Source: a virus
IMG/VR virus record: IMGVR_UViG_3300027834_000023
Location: 1 to 32,435 of that record
Length of the DNA stretch: 32,435 nucleotides
Reading direction: 5' to 3' (one strand)
Position 1 is the stretch's first letter. Every line of letters starts with the position of its first letter. Below the pieces are notes generated by a model. That model was not told the origin of the DNA. It worked only from the letters and a program-made list of their open reading frames with translations, and made no database searches. Shown here piece by piece: positions 3,141 through 30,435 of this stretch. The position numbers and the translations under genes were made by a program.

Positions 3141-5501
3141 TTAATCTGGAGTGTCGCCACTACCATTAATGAATCGTGCTGTATCTGTGTATTGTATTGT
3201 AACAGTTGCGCCTGATTTAATTAAGCCGCTACCAGGTAAGCCGCCAGAGCCTCCGCCAATACCGCCAGCATTGACACCGCTTTGACCCCATCCACCACCA
3301 TTTATTCCGCCAGTACCTACGCCGCCATTCCCGTTTGTATCGCCGTTACCACCTATATCACCGTAGGTTACGCTGCTTAACTCGTAAGTAACACCAGCAG
3401 CTCCGCCTATCGCTGGAGTATTACCAGCCCCAGAGCCGCCTCCGTTACCTGGATCACCTTCAAACGAACCGCCAGAGCCGCCACCGCCACCACCAGGGGC
3501 GCGTAAGTAACCGTCAGCAGTTGGGTAGGTTGGGTTTCCTGTTGCGCCCTCCAGAAATATAGAAGTTCCCACCCCATCAGCGTTAAAACATACGCCGCCA
3601 TCATCGCCATCCCCAGCTCTAGGTTGTTGCACCCAAGGAGGCTGCCCGGGTTCAAACTCCCTTTCCCATCCTGCGCCGTTACCGCCTTCGCCTGAATGAG
3701 ATTGCCAGTCCGTGCCGTTAATGCAAATAATAGTTACAGTAGAACCAGCAGCGAAAGCGCCGTTTCTCATTGATGGATTGCTTGTATCATCAGATAGCAC
3801 AGTGCAGTTATCTAGAACCACAGTCCAGTCAACAGCTTGCGATGGCCTGCCAGCAAAATCATTGTGTATATCAATTTCTGAAATTACAGAGTCTTTGCGA
3901 TAAGTTATATTTTCTCCGCCGCCGCCAGATATTGCATTTAGGTATGTTGTCGCCTTCACTTTGTAAGCGCGACCTACGCCTTTGTAAGAGTATAGCGGTT
4001 TAACTTGTGTAACTTGCGCCCTAACAACTTCGCTACCGCCTTCAACGTTCTGCAAGTCTTGATGGGTGAATGAGACAATATCTCCAGCAAAATAATTTAA
4101 ATACTTCTCCTCGCAATCCCAAGAGTATTCGCGCGGTTCAATACTGAACCTAGAAGTATTTCTTTGCACTCTTAGCGTTGCGTCATTAGTATTAAGCAAT
4201 GAAGATGATTCTAGTTCGACAGATTTAACCGATCCGTAAAAATCTGAACCCTCGTAAGTTGTATCAGAGTTAATGGCAACTTTTTTATAATTACCAGCAT
4301 CATTATTTTCAGTCTTGAAAGGCTTGTCGTATTTAACGAAAGTTCTAGACGCTCTCATTTCTGGCTTTGTAGAGTAAGTAAACCCAAGCTCAGTAATACC
4401 TCTGCCAACCACGATATCCTGAGACGGCTCTTTCCATGCTGAAACTGCAGATACTTTTATTTTTGCAGGCTCTAAAGCTGACTCCCAAATGTCTAACATG
4501 TAATCCATGCAAAGGGAGTTGATTCTATCTTTAACAGCTATTGGCTCGTGCCATACGTTTGTGATCGTAGTTCCCGCCCAATAATCATCAAACTCAGCTT
4601 GCCATGCCGTAGCATCTAGATAATTAGCTGGAAGCTCTGCGGTCAGTAAAAGCTCCGTTAAGTAATCAGACATTGATTGCTCATCTGACACCCTGCATAT
4701 CTGAATGTTATCCCCTGCTTCATGGTCTTCCGCTACGGTTCTAGATATGGAATTTCCACCCGTACCCTTTACACCATATGAACGAGTTTGAACTGTTAAT
4801 ATCTCAGTGCCTGAGTCATAAGACACGGGTGTCATTAAGTCGTCACCAATCTTGATTGCTTGAGGCAATGATGACCAATTGTACTGCGCGTCATTAACTG
4901 GGATCGCAGTTGTAGATGAATTAATATCAAGCCTCAAAACTGTATCTGTTGACGGCGGATATTGGTTGTAGTCCTTGTAAGTGCGCTCAAGGTACGATTT
5001 GCAGGTTAGCGTGTAATCACCGCTAGCTGATACCTTTAACGCTTCAGATAGGTATACAGAGGTGCTAGTGATGGTGTTTATTCCACCTTCACGCGTAAAC
5101 CTGTAAAGCTTAACTTCTCGACCACTCAAAAAGTTACGGGCGTTAAACTTGGACATGTAAGTGCCATTTGGCGTGGTATTTACTGGGCCTGGATCACCTT
5201 CCCAATCATTAAATGTCACCGATAAACTTCCACGGCTTGCCATGCCGTCAAGCTTTAGTGTCGGTGTTGTTTCAGATATAGATTTAATCTGCCTGTAAAT
5301 AGGATGACCGGCTTCAAATTCATTTACACTGATTGGCACTTTCGCTGTGCCGAAATAATACGTCCACGTATCATTACCATTCTCTACACAAGTAATCGGC
5401 GTGTGGTAGCCTTGCGACCAGTTAACGCCTTGCGGGATTGTGCATGTGCCGTTAACGTATGGCAGTTCAATAGATAAAACCTCAAAATGTTCAATACTCA
5501 T
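3141..5501 (-). CDS. Tail tip/hub protein with glycine-rich adhesin-like C-terminus
   Basis: A 786-residue protein directly after the distal-tail-type gene and before the tail fibre. Its first 540 residues have no motif I can name but hold the position of the central tail-tip (gpJ-type) protein. From about 600 to 765 it becomes extremely glycine-rich, with runs such as APGGGGGGSGG separated by short hydrophobic turns, ending in a beta-like segment. This resembles the polyglycine sandwich of T-even-type gp38 adhesins, so the C-terminus may bind the receptor. The frame is open to TTG 5519, but ATG 5501 is better: it follows GACGGGG and overlaps the upstream stop as ATGA. The tail position is sure; the receptor-binding role is inferred. 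Confidence 0.7.
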   Translation of the reverse strand: MSIEHFEVLSIELPYVNGTCTIPQGVNWSQGYHTPITCVENGNDTWTYYFGTAKVPISVNEFEAGHPIYRQIKSISETTPTLKLDGMASRGSLSVTFNDWEGDPGPVNTTPNGTYMSKFNARNFLSGREVKLYRFTREGGINTITSTSVYLSEALKVSASGDYTLTCKSYLERTYKDYNQYPPSTDTVLRLDINSSTTAIPVNDAQYNWSSLPQAIKIGDDLMTPVSYDSGTEILTVQTRSYGVKGTGGNSISRTVAEDHEAGDNIQICRVSDEQSMSDYLTELLLTAELPANYLDATAWQAEFDDYWAGTTITNVWHEPIAVKDRINSLCMDYMLDIWESALEPAKIKVSAVSAWKEPSQDIVVGRGITELGFTYSTKPEMRASRTFVKYDKPFKTENNDAGNYKKVAINSDTTYEGSDFYGSVKSVELESSSLLNTNDATLRVQRNTSRFSIEPREYSWDCEEKYLNYFAGDIVSFTHQDLQNVEGGSEVVRAQVTQVKPLYSYKGVGRAYKVKATTYLNAISGGGGENITYRKDSVISEIDIHNDFAGRPSQAVDWTVVLDNCTVLSDDTSNPSMRNGAFAAGSTVTIICINGTDWQSHSGEGGNGAGWEREFEPGQPPWVQQPRAGDGDDGGVCFNADGVGTSIFLEGATGNPTYPTADGYLRAPGGGGGGSGGSFEGDPGNGGGSGAGNTPAIGGAAGVTYELSSVTYGDIGGNGDTNGNGGVGTGGINGGGWGQSGVNAGGIGGGSGGLPGSGLIKSGATVTIQYTDTARFINGSGDTPD

Positions 5502-6253
5502 AGAACGTACCCCGTCCAACAGCTAAACTTCATCGATACGTTTTGAAGCTCTCTTGTCTGGGGGTGGGCCTTAACTGATGACGGTACACAGTCATAACAA
5601 TAGTAGCCGCGATCGCCTCTTGTCTCTTCCTCAACAACAAACATCCCATTCCTAACGGCGAACCCTTGCATGGGAACCCAGACTTCTTCAATATCTATGT
5701 TGGTTATATTGTTGAATTTAAGAGTGCCGCTAACGCCTGTTGACTCAATAACTTTAGCTGTAGGCATTCCCAAGTTGGTTTGTGTTCTCTGCTTGTATGC
5801 AGGAGTCGACCAAGGTCGAGCGTATCCAGATTCCTCGCCACCATTTGGAACATTCCAGCAAGTGCCAGCTGCTAAATATGCAACGCCAACAATAGAGTTA
5901 GATAGTATCTTAGTAAACGTTATGCGCCACTTAGTGTAAGTTGTACTAGATGTGTTAACGTGCATTATCGTGGAATCTGATGTTATGTTATAAGTACCAT
6001 CGACAACATAAGCCACGCCATCCCAGTACTCGATATCAATCTTTGATACTTTGCCGAATACATCTAAGCCAGATAGGCCGATATATCCAACTTTATCAGT
6101 TTCTAGCTCAATCCTGAAAAAGTTAGAGCTTGTGCCGCTGCGATATATTTCTGAGAAATCCTTATTTAAAAGGTACTGAAGCGGATTGGCTCCAGCGTCC
6201 TCCGATATCGTTACATTCCCGCCTGTTAGGGTGTTACTTGTTGAGATATACAT
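5498..6253 (-). CDS. Putative distal tail / tail-tip protein
   Basis: A 251-residue protein between the tape measure and the tail-tip hub, the usual place of the distal tail protein that joins the tail tube to the tip. It has a beta-rich composition; the N-terminal half (about residues 20-115, with RIELETDKVGYIGLSGLDV) resembles a jelly-roll or F5/8-type carbohydrate-binding fold, but I cannot place it in a named family. Cysteines cluster near the end (YYCYDC...FSCW). It overlaps the following hub gene by 4 bases (ATGA), suggesting coupled translation. Role inferred mainly from gene order. Confidence 0.6.
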   Translation of the reverse strand: MYISTSNTLTGGNVTISEDAGANPLQYLLNKDFSEIYRSGTSSNFFRIELETDKVGYIGLSGLDVFGKVSKIDIEYWDGVAYVVDGTYNITSDSTIMHVNTSSTTYTKWRITFTKILSNSIVGVAYLAAGTCWNVPNGGEESGYARPWSTPAYKQRTQTNLGMPTAKVIESTGVSGTLKFNNITNIDIEEVWVPMQGFAVRNGMFVVEEETRGDRGYYCYDCVPSSVKAHPQTRELQNVSMKFSCWTGYVL

Positions 6254-24397: not shown

Positions 24398-24787
24398 TTA
24401 AAATGGCATTTGATCATCCCACCCATCGCCCAAATCTGGGTTTTGCTGCTGCTGAGGTTGAGGGTTAGTTCTCTGCTGTTGACCTTGGCGCTGAGGCTGC
24501 GGGTTTTGGTTTTGCTGGCGTTGCTGCTGAGGCTTTCCGCCAGACTGTAGCTCTTGCAGTCCATAAAAGATCTTACCATTACCAAGGATTGGCATTTGAA
24601 CTTGCTGGCCGCGCTCCTCCTTGCTTGTAGATTGAGTAATAAACCCGTGGTCTCCGTAAGTTCCCTCATTATCTGGGTCTAAGAACATTGTTAAATCCAC
24701 ATACAATGCGCCAGACTGCGCAGCGAAAAAACGAGCCTTATCTAACTTTTTAACGTCTAATTTAATACTGATTCCGATTTTAGCCAT
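24398..24787 (-). CDS. Single-stranded DNA-binding protein-like
   Basis: A 129-residue protein. The first 80 residues form a small beta domain (IGISIKLDVKKLDKARFFAA, then YVDLTMFLDPDN). A glutamine/proline/arginine-rich linker (about 84-117) leads to an acidic tip, WDDQMPF, which matches the conserved SSB tail that recruits partner proteins. The N-terminal domain is not a clear OB-fold match by eye. Together with the annealing protein upstream in the same transcript it forms a recombination module. Confidence 0.75.
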   Translation of the reverse strand: MAKIGISIKLDVKKLDKARFFAAQSGALYVDLTMFLDPDNEGTYGDHGFITQSTSKEERGQQVQMPILGNGKIFYGLQELQSGGKPQQQRQQNQNPQPQRQGQQQRTNPQPQQQQNPDLGDGWDDQMPF

Positions 24788-24798
24788 GACATTTATTC

Positions 24799-25836
24799 CT
24801 AGTAGTTAATTTGAATATTTGCAATTTTACGTGATGAAATTAGTTTTACAGCTAGCTTTGCGCTGGCTTTATCTAGACCACCTTGAACAAAACAATCGAA
24901 TGCTTGCGTCTTTATTGCTCGGCTATGCTTTTTGTCAGCTTCAAGCTTTGCAGCTTCCTGCTCTGCTGCAATTCTTGCTTGTTCTTGGCGTTGCTTCTCT
25001 TGCTCAACCGCTTGCTTAGCTGCTAACTCTGACTGCTGCTGAGCGTAAGCCTTGGCGTTTTCGGCGTCTATGGCGGCTTGTTTTTCCTGCTCAACTCTGC
25101 GCAACTCTGACTGATCAGCTTCGTGCTTTAATCGTTCGGTTTCAGCTGCTGCGTCCTGCTCAGCTTCCTGGCGCATTCTTTCGCGCATTTCCGCTTGTTC
25201 AACCTCTAGCTGTTGCGCGGCTTCTTGCTCTGCAATTTTACGCTGCTGCTCGTCAATGGCCGCTTGCTGCTTCGCTAGCTCGTCAGACTTGCGTTGCATT
25301 TCTTCAAACTGTAAAGCTGTTGACATTGCATCGGTTAGCTTGCCGATAACCTTAGACTGTAGATCTATAATTGCTGGCGTCTCTTTACCGTAAACAGATT
25401 GATCTGCATCAAAACAACCGCAATCATCTATCAATCCTTGGATAACCTGAGAGCTTTGATTGAATGCGCTCTCAATGTAACCGTTTAGAGTGTTGAAACC
25501 GTTTTGTATTGCGGCTTCCTTAGCTGCTTTGATGCGTTTCTTTTCTTCGTCAACAGCCTTGTATGCCTCTTGGTGAGGCTTTTGCGCTGCCTCAAGTATC
25601 TCCATTACTTCATTCTTTTTAGCATCTACAGCTCGACCACCTTCTAGGTAGAAAGCTTTTGCCTGCTTGTGCGCGCTAGTTAAAGCCGTTCTCGCTGGAG
25701 TTGTCACCTTTAAAACGTATTCCTTTGAAGCTTCGTAACCCTGCTTAGTTGTGCAATCTGGTAAAAAGTTACCTTTGTTTTGAATCTCTGCTAAATCAGC
25801 CAGTACTTTATCAAATGCTTTTAGTTGCTCACTCAT
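24799..25836 (-). CDS. Long coiled-coil protein of the recombination module
   Basis: A 345-residue protein. The first 170 residues are mixed helical (with KQAKAFYLEGGRAVDAKKNE); residues about 175-300 are a nearly unbroken Gln/Glu/Ala/Lys coiled coil, and the last 40 residues form a compact basic end (HSRAIKTQAFDCFVQGGLDK). Such proteins beside RecT/Erf-like genes are often annotated as DUF1351 or, misleadingly, TolA. It overlaps the annealing protein's stop (TAATG), pointing to joint function, perhaps as a scaffold or partner in DNA annealing. Role unproven. Confidence 0.7.
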   Translation of the reverse strand: MSEQLKAFDKVLADLAEIQNKGNFLPDCTTKQGYEASKEYVLKVTTPARTALTSAHKQAKAFYLEGGRAVDAKKNEVMEILEAAQKPHQEAYKAVDEEKKRIKAAKEAAIQNGFNTLNGYIESAFNQSSQVIQGLIDDCGCFDADQSVYGKETPAIIDLQSKVIGKLTDAMSTALQFEEMQRKSDELAKQQAAIDEQQRKIAEQEAAQQLEVEQAEMRERMRQEAEQDAAAETERLKHEADQSELRRVEQEKQAAIDAENAKAYAQQQSELAAKQAVEQEKQRQEQARIAAEQEAAKLEADKKHSRAIKTQAFDCFVQGGLDKASAKLAVKLISSRKIANIQINY

Positions 25837-26540
25837 TATTTGCTATCCTTATTTGCTAAGTTTTCTTTTGCCTTTTCTGCTTCTGCAAAAAGACGGTTAA
25901 CCATTTGCTGGCGCTTCTCTTGCGACGCCTTAATTATTGTTAGTTTATCTGCCATTTTAGAGTTAATTCGGTCGTACATCATATTTACAGCTCTTTCATT
26001 CGGAGCCAGATGCAAGCTTTTGCACTCGGTTGTGATCCATTCCTTAAATTCATCGTTAGCAGCTCGGATCTTTTCTTCGTCTCCGCTTTCGACTCTCGCC
26101 TTTGCGTCCATCATATTCACGTATTCAGGGTCATCGAAATGACCTAAGAACACGTCAGCACTAAAGCCAAGCTTTGACAACGCTTTGCTCATTGTGTTTG
26201 TTTCAGCCTTTTTTGCAAAGTCTGGATCTATTCTTGCTTTCTCACCTGCTCCGCTTTTCATGGCGTAAGCATTGTTAATTGGGAATGATGATTTTTCACC
26301 ATTCATCACATAGAAGAAAACAGCATTTACAAGAACTAGGCCAGAAACTTCAAACAGTTGGTAATCGTAGTTTATCGAGTCAAACCCCCAGCCTTTGCCA
26401 TAAGTGCCAAACTTTCGCGTTGCTTCTCTTATTTGGTATTGCGGGTCTATCGATGTAAATCCGCCGCGCTGCTTCACTTCTTTGGTGAATGTCGGGTCAG
26501 TCTCACAAACATCATTCCAAAAATCTAAATTATTACTCAT
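25836..26540 (-). CDS. Putative single-strand annealing recombinase (Erf/Rad52-like superfamily)
   Basis: A 234-residue protein. The N-terminal half carries the pattern FTSIDPQYQIREATRKFGTY-G-K-G-W-G, a hydrophobic beta pair, and KKAETNTMSKALSKLGFSAD followed by VFLGHFDDPEYV, as in phage Sak/Rad52-type annealing proteins; the C-terminal half is charged and helical. It would anneal complementary strands during replication and recombination. ATG 26540 is preferred to GTG 26549 because AAAAAGGAG lies 8 bases before it. Exact subfamily (Erf, Sak or other) not settled. No 5'-3' exonuclease gene is seen beside it. Confidence 0.72.
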   Translation of the reverse strand: MSNNLDFWNDVCETDPTFTKEVKQRGGFTSIDPQYQIREATRKFGTYGKGWGFDSINYDYQLFEVSGLVLVNAVFFYVMNGEKSSFPINNAYAMKSGAGEKARIDPDFAKKAETNTMSKALSKLGFSADVFLGHFDDPEYVNMMDAKARVESGDEEKIRAANDEFKEWITTECKSLHLAPNERAVNMMYDRINSKMADKLTIIKASQEKRQQMVNRLFAEAEKAKENLANKDSK

Positions 26541-26562
26541 TGCAATCACTCCTTTTTAACTT

Positions 26563-26703
26563 TTAAACTTTCTTGCTCTGCTTTAATGCCGCATCGATTA
26601 TTAGCTTCTCGATAAACTTTTGACGACTTCTTTTGTCGTTCTTTGCTGCCTCTTTAATTAACTCATTCTCTTTATGTGGGATGTCACATTTAAACGTTGC
26701 CAT
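26563..26703 (-). CDS. Small ribbon-helix-helix-like protein (46 residues)
   Basis: MATFKCDIPHKENELIKEAA followed by KNDKRSRQKFIEKLIIDAAL: a short strand then two helices, the size and pattern of Arc/CopG-type DNA-binding proteins. First gene of the - strand recombination transcript, 31 bases after the divergent promoter's -10 element, with AAGGAA before ATG 26703. It could autoregulate the divergent promoters, whose 18-bp dyad lies 36 bases upstream, but this is inferred. Confidence 0.6.
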   Translation of the reverse strand: MATFKCDIPHKENELIKEAAKNDKRSRQKFIEKLIIDAALKQSKKV

Positions 26704-26721
26704 ATTGATTCCTTTATTTAC

Positions 26722-26762
26722 TTGACGGGGTTAATTATGGGGTATAGTATTACCCCTGTCAA
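26722..26762. promoter_or_regulatory. Face-to-face divergent promoters with shared dyad operator
   Basis: + strand: TTGACG (26722-26727), 17 bp, TAGTAT (26745-26750). - strand: TTGACA (26762-26757), 17 bp, CATAAT (26739-26734). The two promoters occupy the same DNA, each -35 lying beyond the other's -10, so they should compete. GGGGTA (26739-26744) and TACCCC (26751-26756) form a dyad whose 6-bp spacer is the + strand -10; a third GGGGTTA half-site lies at 26727-26733. They drive the + replication genes and the - recombination genes. Confidence 0.8.
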
Positions 26763-26784
26763 CAACAAATTGGAGTTTAAATAA

Positions 26785-26985
26785 ATGAAGCGATATACAG
26801 ATCTAAGCATTCACGGCCAGCAAGTAGAATGCAGATACCTAGTTAAAGATACGATCGAACACCTAAACCTTTTAATCGGTGGTCAATGGGTTGGAATGGA
26901 TGACCTGCTAAACATAGATGAGGTTTACCTGGCACTAGATGCTCATCATCAAAACTTACTACAGGAAGATAATTGTGAAAGCTAA
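26785..26985 (+). CDS. Unknown 66-residue protein, first gene of the + early operon
   Basis: MKRYTDLSIHGQQVECRYLV, an acidic small protein with several leucines and an LNLLIGGQWVGMDDLLNIDE segment. GGAG precedes ATG 26785 by about 8 bases. It is the first gene behind the + strand early promoter, and its end overlaps the Ref-like gene by 11 bases. No family recognised. Confidence 0.65.
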   Translation: MKRYTDLSIHGQQVECRYLVKDTIEHLNLLIGGQWVGMDDLLNIDEVYLALDAHHQNLLQEDNCES

Positions 26986-27253
26986 AGATCGCAGACACCT
27001 TGGCAAGGTAGCAGCTATGGGGTGTATCGTTTGCATGAACCATAACAATATCGATACCCCAGCAGAGATACACCACATCGGTAACGGTACGATGGGCAAG
27101 AAGGCTACCAACTATCAAGTTATACCTCTTTGCCATTACCACCACAGAACAGGTGGCCACGGCGCAGCTATTCATGCTGGCCGTAAAACGTGGGAATCTA
27201 ATTTCGGCACTGAACAGCAATTGCTAGAGCAAGTAATGGAGATGATCAAATGA
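26975..27253 (+). CDS. Ref-like (HNH-type, RecA-dependent) nuclease
   Basis: A 92-residue protein. CIVCMNH (about 18-24) with EIHHIGNG (about 32-39) and PLCHYHHRTG (about 52-61) followed by GRKTWESNFGTEQQLL match the Ref family of phage HNH-type nucleases; in phage P1, Ref cuts DNA inside RecA-made D-loops. Start at GTG 26975 has AGGAAG upstream; the frame is open to 26939, but that adds an unrelated leader inside the previous gene. Placed with the resolvase, it fits a DNA recombination or processing role. RecA dependence is assumed from the family. Confidence 0.82.
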   Translation: MKAKDRRHLGKVAAMGCIVCMNHNNIDTPAEIHHIGNGTMGKKATNYQVIPLCHYHHRTGGHGAAIHAGRKTWESNFGTEQQLLEQVMEMIK

Positions 27254-27648
27254 GCGATTATTTTTTCACCATCCCAATATACGGGGTGGTAACCACGACA
27301 AAGAGCAATAAGAATACGGCGATAACTTTAAACTGGAGAGCTAACGCGCATAAGTTTACCTACAGCAATGCTAAAAAAAAGTTCTCAGCATTGATGGCTG
27401 AGCAGATAAAAAGCTTTGATCCAATTGATTGCCAAGTATCAATTAAATACGTCTACTACGCGAAAAGAAAAGGGACTGACTTGGATAACTTTATCGGCAT
27501 GGCTAAAAAGTTTTTTCAAGACTCGCTGGTTGACCACGGATTCATGCCTGACGACAATGTTAAATTCATAGTGGCAAACTCTGAATTTTATGGTGGTATA
27601 GACAAAGAAAACCCAAGAGTTGAGGCATTTATAACAACTTTGGATTAA
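27250..27648 (+). CDS. RusA-like Holliday junction resolvase
   Basis: A 132-residue protein. The core GTDLDNFIGMAKKFFQDSLV followed by FMPDDNVKFI matches RusA: D-x-D-N-x-x-K...D-x-L...G...D-D with acidic residues that bind metal. The N-terminal half has basic beta strands (ITLNWRANAHKFTYSN). RusA cuts four-way junctions, here probably to resolve replication and recombination intermediates before packaging. Starts as an ATGA overlap with the Ref-like gene. Confidence 0.8.
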   Translation: MSDYFFTIPIYGVVTTTKSNKNTAITLNWRANAHKFTYSNAKKKFSALMAEQIKSFDPIDCQVSIKYVYYAKRKGTDLDNFIGMAKKFFQDSLVDHGFMPDDNVKFIVANSEFYGGIDKENPRVEAFITTLD

Positions 27649-29348: not shown

Positions 29349-29454
29349 GCAGTACGAACGAACAAACTTACGTATACCTGTAGCACTTAGGGCTAAGTTT
29401 AAGCGGGAGATACTAGAGTTTGAGCTAAATCTAGAAGAAAACAAACCCTCCTAG
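29311..29454 (+). CDS. Small ribbon-helix-helix-like DNA-binding protein (47 residues)
   Basis: MKSEKETRGRKAKQYERTNL then RIPVALRAKFKREILEFELN: a basic arm, a strand (RTNLRIP) and helices, the usual pattern of phage ribbon-helix-helix proteins (R-x-N-x-R-I-P-x-x-L). ATG 29311 follows GAGGTAA. Its stop codon lies in the loop of the terminator hairpin. Likely a small repressor; its target is unknown. Confidence 0.65.
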   Translation: MKSEKETRGRKAKQYERTNLRIPVALRAKFKREILEFELNLEENKPS

Positions 29455-29466
29455 CGAGGGTTTTTT
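29443..29466 (+). terminator. Terminator overlapping the stop of the 29311 gene
   Basis: AAACCCTC (29443-29450), loop CTAGC containing the TAG stop, GAGGGTTT (29456-29463) and TTT following. Strong rho-independent form on the + strand. Confidence 0.9.
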
Positions 29467-29489: not shown

Positions 29490-29535
29490 TTGACTGTTGA
29501 TGTACCTTAGTTGTACAATAGATGTATCTTATAAT
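29490..29535 (+). promoter_or_regulatory. Promoter with three 11-bp-spaced TGTAY operator repeats
   Basis: TTGACT (29490-29495), 18 bp and TACAAT (29514-29519); a second -10, TATAAT (29530-29535), follows. TGTAC (29501), TGTAC (29512) and TGTAT (29523) are direct repeats exactly 11 bp apart, one DNA turn, overlapping the promoter. The next gene encodes a ribbon-helix-helix protein, so autoregulation is likely. Confidence 0.7.
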
Positions 29536-29549
29536 GTGAGGGTTTAAAA

Positions 29550-29744
29550 ATGGCGCGTATTGGAGTTGAGTTCGGTGATAAGCAAGTATTTCAAATAGAC
29601 GATTTAGCTAAGTCTTCAGGCTTTGGTAAGTCGCGTATAGCTCGTGCAGCAATGCAGATTGGGCTAGCAGCTATCAGAGACGCTGAAACAGATACTAGAC
29701 GTGATGAGGTTATTGCGATTAATGATCTAAAGGCTATCAATTAA
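29550..29744 (+). CDS. Ribbon-helix-helix (CopG/Arc-like) regulator
   Basis: A 64-residue protein: strand (QVFQIDDL), helix (AKSSGFGKSRIARAAM), helix (QIGLAAIRDAE), then an acidic tail. The LAKSSGFGKSRIARAAMQIG stretch is a typical helix-turn-helix of ribbon-helix-helix regulators, which bind DNA as dimers on short direct or inverted repeats. GAGGG precedes ATG 29550. It stands alone between a terminator and the replication genes, with its own promoter carrying three in-phase repeats. Target genes are probably its own and the replication genes downstream. Confidence 0.78.
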   Translation: MARIGVEFGDKQVFQIDDLAKSSGFGKSRIARAAMQIGLAAIRDAETDTRRDEVIAINDLKAIN

Positions 29745-29793
29745 AAAACCCGCTGGCGGGCGGGCAATTTGTTTATTACTAACGGGGTTAATT

Positions 29794-30435
29794 ATGTCAC
29801 AAGGTTGGATATGTGTACATAGAAAGCTATTGGATTGGGAGTGGTTTGATGATCACAACACATTCAGGCTGTTTATGTATTTCATGTTAAAAGCTAATCA
29901 CCAAGATAAGAAATGGAAAGGCATTCTTATTAAGCGTGGGCAGCATTTAACATCACTAGACAAGATAGTCGCTGGAAGTGGTTTATCAAAAAGCCAAATT
30001 CGAACCGCTATAAACAAGCTAAAATCGACACGCGAGATAGCACACGAAACTAACGCGCAACACACTGTTATTACTATCATTAATTACAATCTGTACCAAG
30101 CGAGTGACACACAGGTTAGCACGCCAGTGACACACCAATCGCACACGAATGACATACCAGTGACACCTAACAACAATGTAAACAATGAAAACAAAGAAGA
30201 AGTCCCTAAACAAAAAAAGAAGTCTGCAAAGAAAAGGGCTACTGCATTTCCTGATGATTTTACAATAACTCAGGAAATGGTTGATTGGTTTAAGAAGCAG
30301 GATTTTAATATAGATCTTGGAGTGGCGACAGACTCTTGGGTTGATGGGATGATATCTAAAGGCCTTACTTATGTTGACTGGACAGCAGCATGGAGAAACG
30401 GAATGAAGAATGCAGACAAGTGGAGCAAAACATGA
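29794..30435 (+). CDS. Phage replication protein (winged-helix, DnaD/O-like)
   Basis: A 213-residue protein. The N-terminus MSQGWICVHRKLLDWEWFDD and the following LFMYFMLKANHQ / IKRGQHLTSLDKIVAGSGLS segments are typical of phage replication initiators with a winged helix (about 1-105, helix-turn-helix SLDKIVAGSGLSKSQIRTAI). A threonine/asparagine and lysine-rich linker (about 108-150) leads to a small C-terminal helical domain ending WRNGMKNADKW, as seen in helicase-loading domains. Overlaps the helicase gene by ATGA. A GGGG run serves as ribosome binding site. Confidence 0.78.
   Translation: MSQGWICVHRKLLDWEWFDDHNTFRLFMYFMLKANHQDKKWKGILIKRGQHLTSLDKIVAGSGLSKSQIRTAINKLKSTREIAHETNAQHTVITIINYNLYQASDTQVSTPVTHQSHTNDIPVTPNNNVNNENKEEVPKQKKKSAKKRATAFPDDFTITQEMVDWFKKQDFNIDLGVATDSWVDGMISKGLTYVDWTAAWRNGMKNADKWSKT

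Follow-up and report, generated by a model that had tools for sequence, protein, structure and literature searches.

An interlocked pair of predicted divergent promoters and a candidate operator that is exchanged together with the adjacent regulator gene among related phages

In the immI region of phage P22, the divergent early promoters Pant and Pmnt are accompanied by the very small ribbon-helix-helix (RHH) repressors Arc and Mnt, and the subsites of Arc lie about one helical turn (11 bp) apart. In phage λ, with its early promoters PR and PL, the gene for the early, self-limiting repressor Cro lies at the divergence of the early arms, and among heteroimmune lambdoid phages the specificity of regulator and operator is exchanged between relatives. 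Divergent promoters that overlap under the control of one repressor are already known, and it is the series of exchanged operators described below that adds interest over any single site. That overlapping promoters admit a single polymerase at once is established (discussed in PMC4207663), and in the case of the Pc/Pr pair of plasmid pLS20 the regulator RcoLS20 is also an activator and forms a DNA loop between two operators (PMC4207663).

The stretch of DNA that we analysed (the window) is a single, incomplete virus record of 32,435 bases. Its left 26.7 kb lies mostly on the minus strand and carries tail, head, portal and terminase genes, its right part lies on the plus strand with genes for a DnaD-like helicase loader and a DnaB-like helicase at its end, and the two gene arms diverge at an 81-bp gap (26704-26784). 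The genes that bear on our argument are the following.

24398-24787, minus strand: left-arm gene for an SSB-like 129-aa protein with a Q-rich tail and an acidic DDQMPF end
25836-26549, minus strand: left arm gene 2, a 237-aa recombination-type protein (phrog_7838, named exonuclease; tblastn)
26563-26703, minus strand: left arm gene 1, a 46-aa protein with a predicted RHH fold, the proposed autorepressor
26785-26985, plus strand: right arm gene 1, a 66-aa protein with no assigned function
26939-27253, plus strand: HNH/RecA-dependent-nuclease-like gene
27250-27648, plus strand: RusA-like Holliday junction resolvase gene

As read from the sequence of the window, a Shine-Dalgarno-like element stands ahead of the first gene in both leaders; on the minus strand it is AAGGAA, preceding the ATG of the 26563-26703 gene. 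Weak relatives of the 66-aa gene occupy the equivalent place in the related records L006 and L029 and in Shewanella phage 3/49. The 129-aa product belongs to no named family, and its sequence suggests an SSB-like identity. By its PHROGs label the 237-aa protein is a putative exonuclease, and its local motifs resemble, in our reading, those of annealing-type proteins.

Within the gap, positions 26722-26762 consist, in succession, of TTGAC, GGGGTT, AATTAT, GGGGTA, TAGTAT, TACCCC and TGTCAA, in which we recognise the following predicted features.

26722-26750, plus strand: rightward σ70-type promoter, with -35 TTGACG (26722-26727), a 17-bp spacer and -10 TAGTAT (26745-26750)
26734-26762, minus strand: leftward σ70-type promoter, with -35 TTGACA (26762-26757), a 17-bp spacer and -10 CATAAT (26739-26734)
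26727-26732, plus strand: candidate operator half-site 1, GGGGTT
26739-26744, plus strand: candidate operator half-site 2, GGGGTA, between both -10 boxes
26751-26756, minus strand: candidate operator half-site 3, GGGGTA (TACCCC on the plus strand)

The initial annotation had described two promoters within these 41 bp, each with a near-consensus -35, a 17-bp spacer and a good -10. Inspection of the sequence and a promoter scan place two opposed σ70-type promoters with overlapping cores exactly there, with the spacers described. The leftward promoter (TTGACA-17-CATAAT) scored 11/12 and was the top promoter within 24-30 kb; the rightward promoter (TTGACG-17-TAGTAT) scored 9/12, and its -10 proved moderate (4/6) rather than good. 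The promoters had also been said to stand face to face, which is wrong: the predicted starts, at about 26757 on the plus strand and about 26727 on the minus strand, put the transcripts apart, so that transcription from the overlapping promoters would be divergent and a convergent geometry is rejected.

The GGGGTW half-sites begin at 26727, 26739 and 26751, a period of exactly 12 bp, and form a triplet, two direct and one inverted, that is asymmetric about its centre. The two 6-bp gaps between these 6-bp half-sites hold the -10 boxes, the leftward of which shares one base with half-site 2, and the -35 boxes make up the ends of the site. In agreement with the initial annotation, the dyad GGGGTA-N6-TACCCC (26739-26756), for which this is the sole perfect match in the window, encloses the rightward -10 exactly and has an extra half-site (GGGGTT, 26727-26732) beside it. 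Since that GGGGTT lies 12 bp from the next half-site, the leftward -10 is also flanked by two half-sites.

At the scan thresholds the window has one overlapping divergent promoter pair. A pair of equal or better summed score arose in 3 of 60 dinucleotide shuffles of the whole window (about 5%), and within the 81-bp divergent gap the corresponding value was p = 0.0005 (1 in 2,000 mononucleotide shuffles); the promoter pair alone is therefore weaker evidence window-wide and strong evidence inside the intergenic gap. The half-site triplet was seen in 0 of 300 shuffles. Stronger than any of these chance estimates is the comparative argument, which begins with the protein encoded next to the site.

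The AlphaFold2 model of the 46-aa protein has an extended start followed by two helices (mean pLDDT 80), with strand-like residues 1-9 and helices at residues 10-23 and 27-45, a strand-helix-helix fold of about 45 residues. Its top Foldseek matches are Arc, AmrZ, TacA2 and other RHH proteins (TM 0.7-0.8, probability up to 0.96), the structural matches span its whole length, and the VIA-align rows are mostly RHH proteins, with CopG and Arc at Z 6.3-6.5. These structural scores are middling (Foldseek E 0.25, Z about 6), as is expected at 46 residues. In Pfam and NCBIfam no family reached the cut-off, a TacA1-like antitoxin matching below threshold (E 0.046), and a PHROG Arc-like repressor matched with an E of 0.11. 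Judged from the model, the 46-aa product is most likely an Arc/CopG-like RHH protein.

Homologs of this protein are encoded in L006 (61% identity), L029 (63%) and Pseudoalteromonas phage HS2 (50%), and both L006 and L029 keep the interlocked layout beside a homologous RHH gene of 46-52 aa. The L006 site differs from the 41 bp of the window by one base, in the rightward -10, and the two sites, being near-identical, are not independent. The L029 site, TTGACTTGGGTTAAGTATAGGGGCTATTATTGAACCCGTCAA, has diverged: the overlapping promoters are both still present (each scoring 10/12; shuffle p 0.0005), as is an outer dyad, GGGT(T)-N20-(A)ACCC, and the middle half-site, AGGGGC, is degenerate. In HS2 the promoters lie apart (TTGCAA-18-TATAAT leftward and TTGACT-17-TACAAT rightward), each -10 stands between GGGT (ACCC) half-sites spaced 11 or 12 bp, and the 157-bp gap holds six ACCC, a number reached by <0.5% of sampled equal-length HS2 stretches. 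Because the HS2 promoters have moved apart, it is half-sites around the -10, and not promoter overlap, that accompany the regulator. (Note that the recombinase behind this common regulator family is swapped, being of the phrog_7838 type in the window and HS2, ERF-like in L006 and a Sak4-like ATPase in L029.)

In a second group of relatives the regulator itself has been exchanged. The first rightward gene of L029 is 97% identical to its counterpart in Shewanella phage 3/49, and this phage and its metagenomic kin L041 and L044 have overlapping promoters (TTGATT-17-TATATT and TTGACT-17-AATACT), the overlap being weak in 3/49 and L041 (shuffle p 0.08-0.10). In all three, GGGT is absent, TACGTA is present twice instead, and leftward gene 1 encodes an unrelated 75-aa protein; the structure model of this 3/49-type regulator was of low confidence and gave no informative match. 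L045 has TTGACT-18-TATGAT and TTGACG-17-TAATAT as its overlapping promoters and GTGC-TAATATTAAT-GCAC as its inner site, and a third kind of small protein is encoded by its first gene. Promoter overlap is thus conserved in L006, L029 and L045 and is weaker in 3/49, and in an alignment of six sites the inner part of both -35 boxes is among the invariant columns while most half-site columns vary. A profile search located the 46-aa family in every record that has GGGT half-sites (four) and in no record that lacks them (three). This co-exchange of gene and half-sites within conserved promoter elements points to the first leftward gene as that of the putative operator-binding protein, and is the best evidence, drawn from sequence comparison, that this gene may encode a repressor of both promoters.

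A separate observation concerns L029, where the product of positions 5156-5563 resembles a GIY-YIG nuclease and has a C-terminal stretch of 50 residues that is 88% identical to the small regulator found free in L045, giving the impression that a regulator, once displaced, was joined to a nuclease.

These relatives also bear on whether both promoters of the window are real. The leftward promoter alone could be genuine, with the rightward one a by-product of the palindromic operator and the -35 dyad; a palindrome automatically yields promoter-like letters on both strands, 26 of the 41 bases of the window site are self-complementary, and the rightward -10 reaches just 4/6. We consider this improbable, given that the inner sites of L029 and L045 are non-palindromic (14/42 and 20/41) yet both of their promoters score 9-10/12, and that no alternative predicted promoter for the rightward arm lies between 26750 and the first gene.

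In more remote phages the equivalent place is likewise the position of an early regulator. The Vibrio phages 1.151.O and 230E39-1 have a Cro/C1-type HTH gene exactly there, and the Vibrio breoganii phages 1.131.O, 1.182.O and 1.064.O have an annotated Arc-type RHH gene upstream of an annealing-protein gene. The latter match the window in gene order and divergence point, with RHH proteins 31-32% identical, but their promoters are separate and no GGGT half-sites were seen in them by eye. With separate promoters in both HS2 and the Vibrio phages, promoter overlap is not essential to such regulation.

The locus resembles P22 immI in its small, predicted RHH regulator, whose fold matches include Arc, in its predicted divergent early promoters and in candidate subsites about one turn apart. 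Unlike immI, it has a single regulator rather than two; both -10 boxes are interspersed with half-sites, recombination genes follow the regulator, and the phage has no detected integrase. Of an Arc/Mnt pair with antirepressor we found one RHH gene at the divergence and no antirepressor among the neighbouring genes examined. As with λ Cro, a proposed early, self-limiting repressor is encoded where the arms diverge, and regulator and operator specificity is exchanged among relatives, but the regulator is of the RHH rather than the HTH type and both promoters are interlocked in a single 41-bp unit. Unlike pLS20, the window has a single short array; a second operator array at a distance was not found in it.

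We favour the reading, to which we assign a probability of about 0.72, that the 41 bp serve as the central control point for early transcription in both directions in a marine gammaproteobacterial siphophage of the PSA-HS2, Shewanella 3/49 and Vibrio breoganii-phage type, and that the RHH protein is an autorepressor that closes both arms jointly. From the layout of the site we infer the following course of promoter activity, polymerase occupancy, binding, joint repression and timing. On entry, host σ70 RNA polymerase would start from either promoter, one per DNA molecule at a time, since both footprints would coincide; the geometry thus supports the earlier suggestion that polymerase cannot occupy both promoters together. 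Leftward transcripts would carry the small RHH gene first and recombination genes next, and rightward transcripts would carry accessory recombination genes and, possibly via read-through, replication genes. As the RHH protein accumulates, its dimers would fill the three GGGGTW half-sites, probably as neighbours on the same face of the DNA and about one helical turn (12 bp) apart, and would cover the two -10 boxes as well as the inner edge of each -35 box. Joint shut-off of both arms would follow, with the repressor limiting its own synthesis in a Cro- or Arc-like role. Indeed, with both cores lying under the half-site array, full occupancy of the array should silence both promoters, which predicts negative autoregulation together with joint early shut-off. 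A common shut-off by one repressor, as had been proposed, is supported insofar as one operator is placed to block both promoters.

By contrast, the proposal in the initial annotation that replication and recombination operons exclude each other is unsupported, the first right-arm genes being also of recombination type (HNH, RusA-like). It is weakened further by a predicted terminator (29443-29463) and an additional predicted promoter (29490-29519) that separate those genes from the helicase loader and DnaB genes, and by the finding that in PSA-HS2 the helicase and recombination/repair genes are all early, and the structural genes late (PMC7082346), though the HS2 promoters do not overlap. The earlier reading as a whole is confirmed as an observation, with its term for the geometry corrected, and partly supported as an interpretation.

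The site might instead be a bistable or ordered switch, in which the two promoters respond unequally to the repressor (the strong leftward one being blocked first, for example, or one of them being activated at low dose) and the arms alternate. The overlapping divergent Pc/Pr pair of pLS20 works in this way, and theory holds that a toggle requires unequal action on the two promoters (PMC4207663); the predicted strengths here do differ (11/12 versus 9/12), and the half-sites, two direct and one inverted, are not symmetric about the centre. We nevertheless think a switch unlikely. We found no evidence here of such unequal action; every -10 is flanked by two half-sites, so a filled array should shut both promoters, and with a symmetric operator one would expect the promoters to be shut off jointly and not to toggle. 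The recombination and helicase genes of HS2 are both early (PMC7082346), though from separate promoters. Finally, we detected no lysogeny gene: integrase had no match in the window, whose record is incomplete, or in nine related records, no HTH_3 repressor was found in this incomplete window, and PSA-HS2 is without integration genes (PMC5498523).

A broader and distinctly tentative idea is that, in marine phages that apparently do not integrate, the interlocked promoters may form a fixed socket into which a repressor gene and its half-sites are swapped together. At least three specificities would exist, and phages that form no lysogens would achieve homotypic shut-off of early genes, or exclusion of superinfecting phages, according to specificity type. 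The natural sites (window, L006, L029, 3/49, L041, L045 and HS2) are a ready-made experiment, in that promoter elements stay roughly constant across them while half-site letters and repressor change. They make testable how an operator is rewritten inside overlapping promoters with neither promoter lost, and why specificity types might diversify in phages without lysogeny, and the site itself offers a very compact two-way repressible promoter.

Wider searches returned few further sites. The window had no match in a nucleotide search against phage records, a degenerate 44-base pattern matched nothing, a plasmid search gave no relative, an IMG/VR scan with the 237-aa protein gave no confirmed relative, and neither did a search for the RHH protein in GTDB genomes (one scan, two patterns). 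A general three-half-site pattern matched 22 stretches in IMG/VR, of which L006 alone was at the homologous place. On a Mu-like contig (L005, 4084-4132), GGGGTAATTTTTTACCCC and TTGACA-17-CATAAT lie between two divergent HTH regulator genes; the palindrome is similar but the regulators are unrelated, and we set this site aside as chance or convergence. A few such chance matches could be expected from so broad a search.

The window also encodes a second small RHH-like protein (64 aa, 29550-29744), whose gene has its own predicted promoter, TTGACT-18-TACAAT (region 29490-29744), accompanied by direct repeats of GATGTAYCTTA, and probably forms an autoregulated unit of its own. Another phage protein such as this one, also small and DNA-binding-like, might bind the GGGGTW half-sites, and CGGGGTTAATTATG, which repeats the left half of the operator, overlaps the start codon of the gene that follows (29783-29796). 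We regard this as highly improbable: a relative of the 64-aa protein is present in L044, which is without GGGT half-sites, and was undetected in L029 and HS2, which have them, and the repeats at its promoter are different, whereas the 46-aa protein tracks the half-sites. The CGGGGTTAATTATG copy, a 14-base exact match at the DnaD-like gene that was not seen at this gene in the other loci examined, could be due to chance or be a further binding site. The L006 contig carries a 43%-identical relative of the 64-aa protein.
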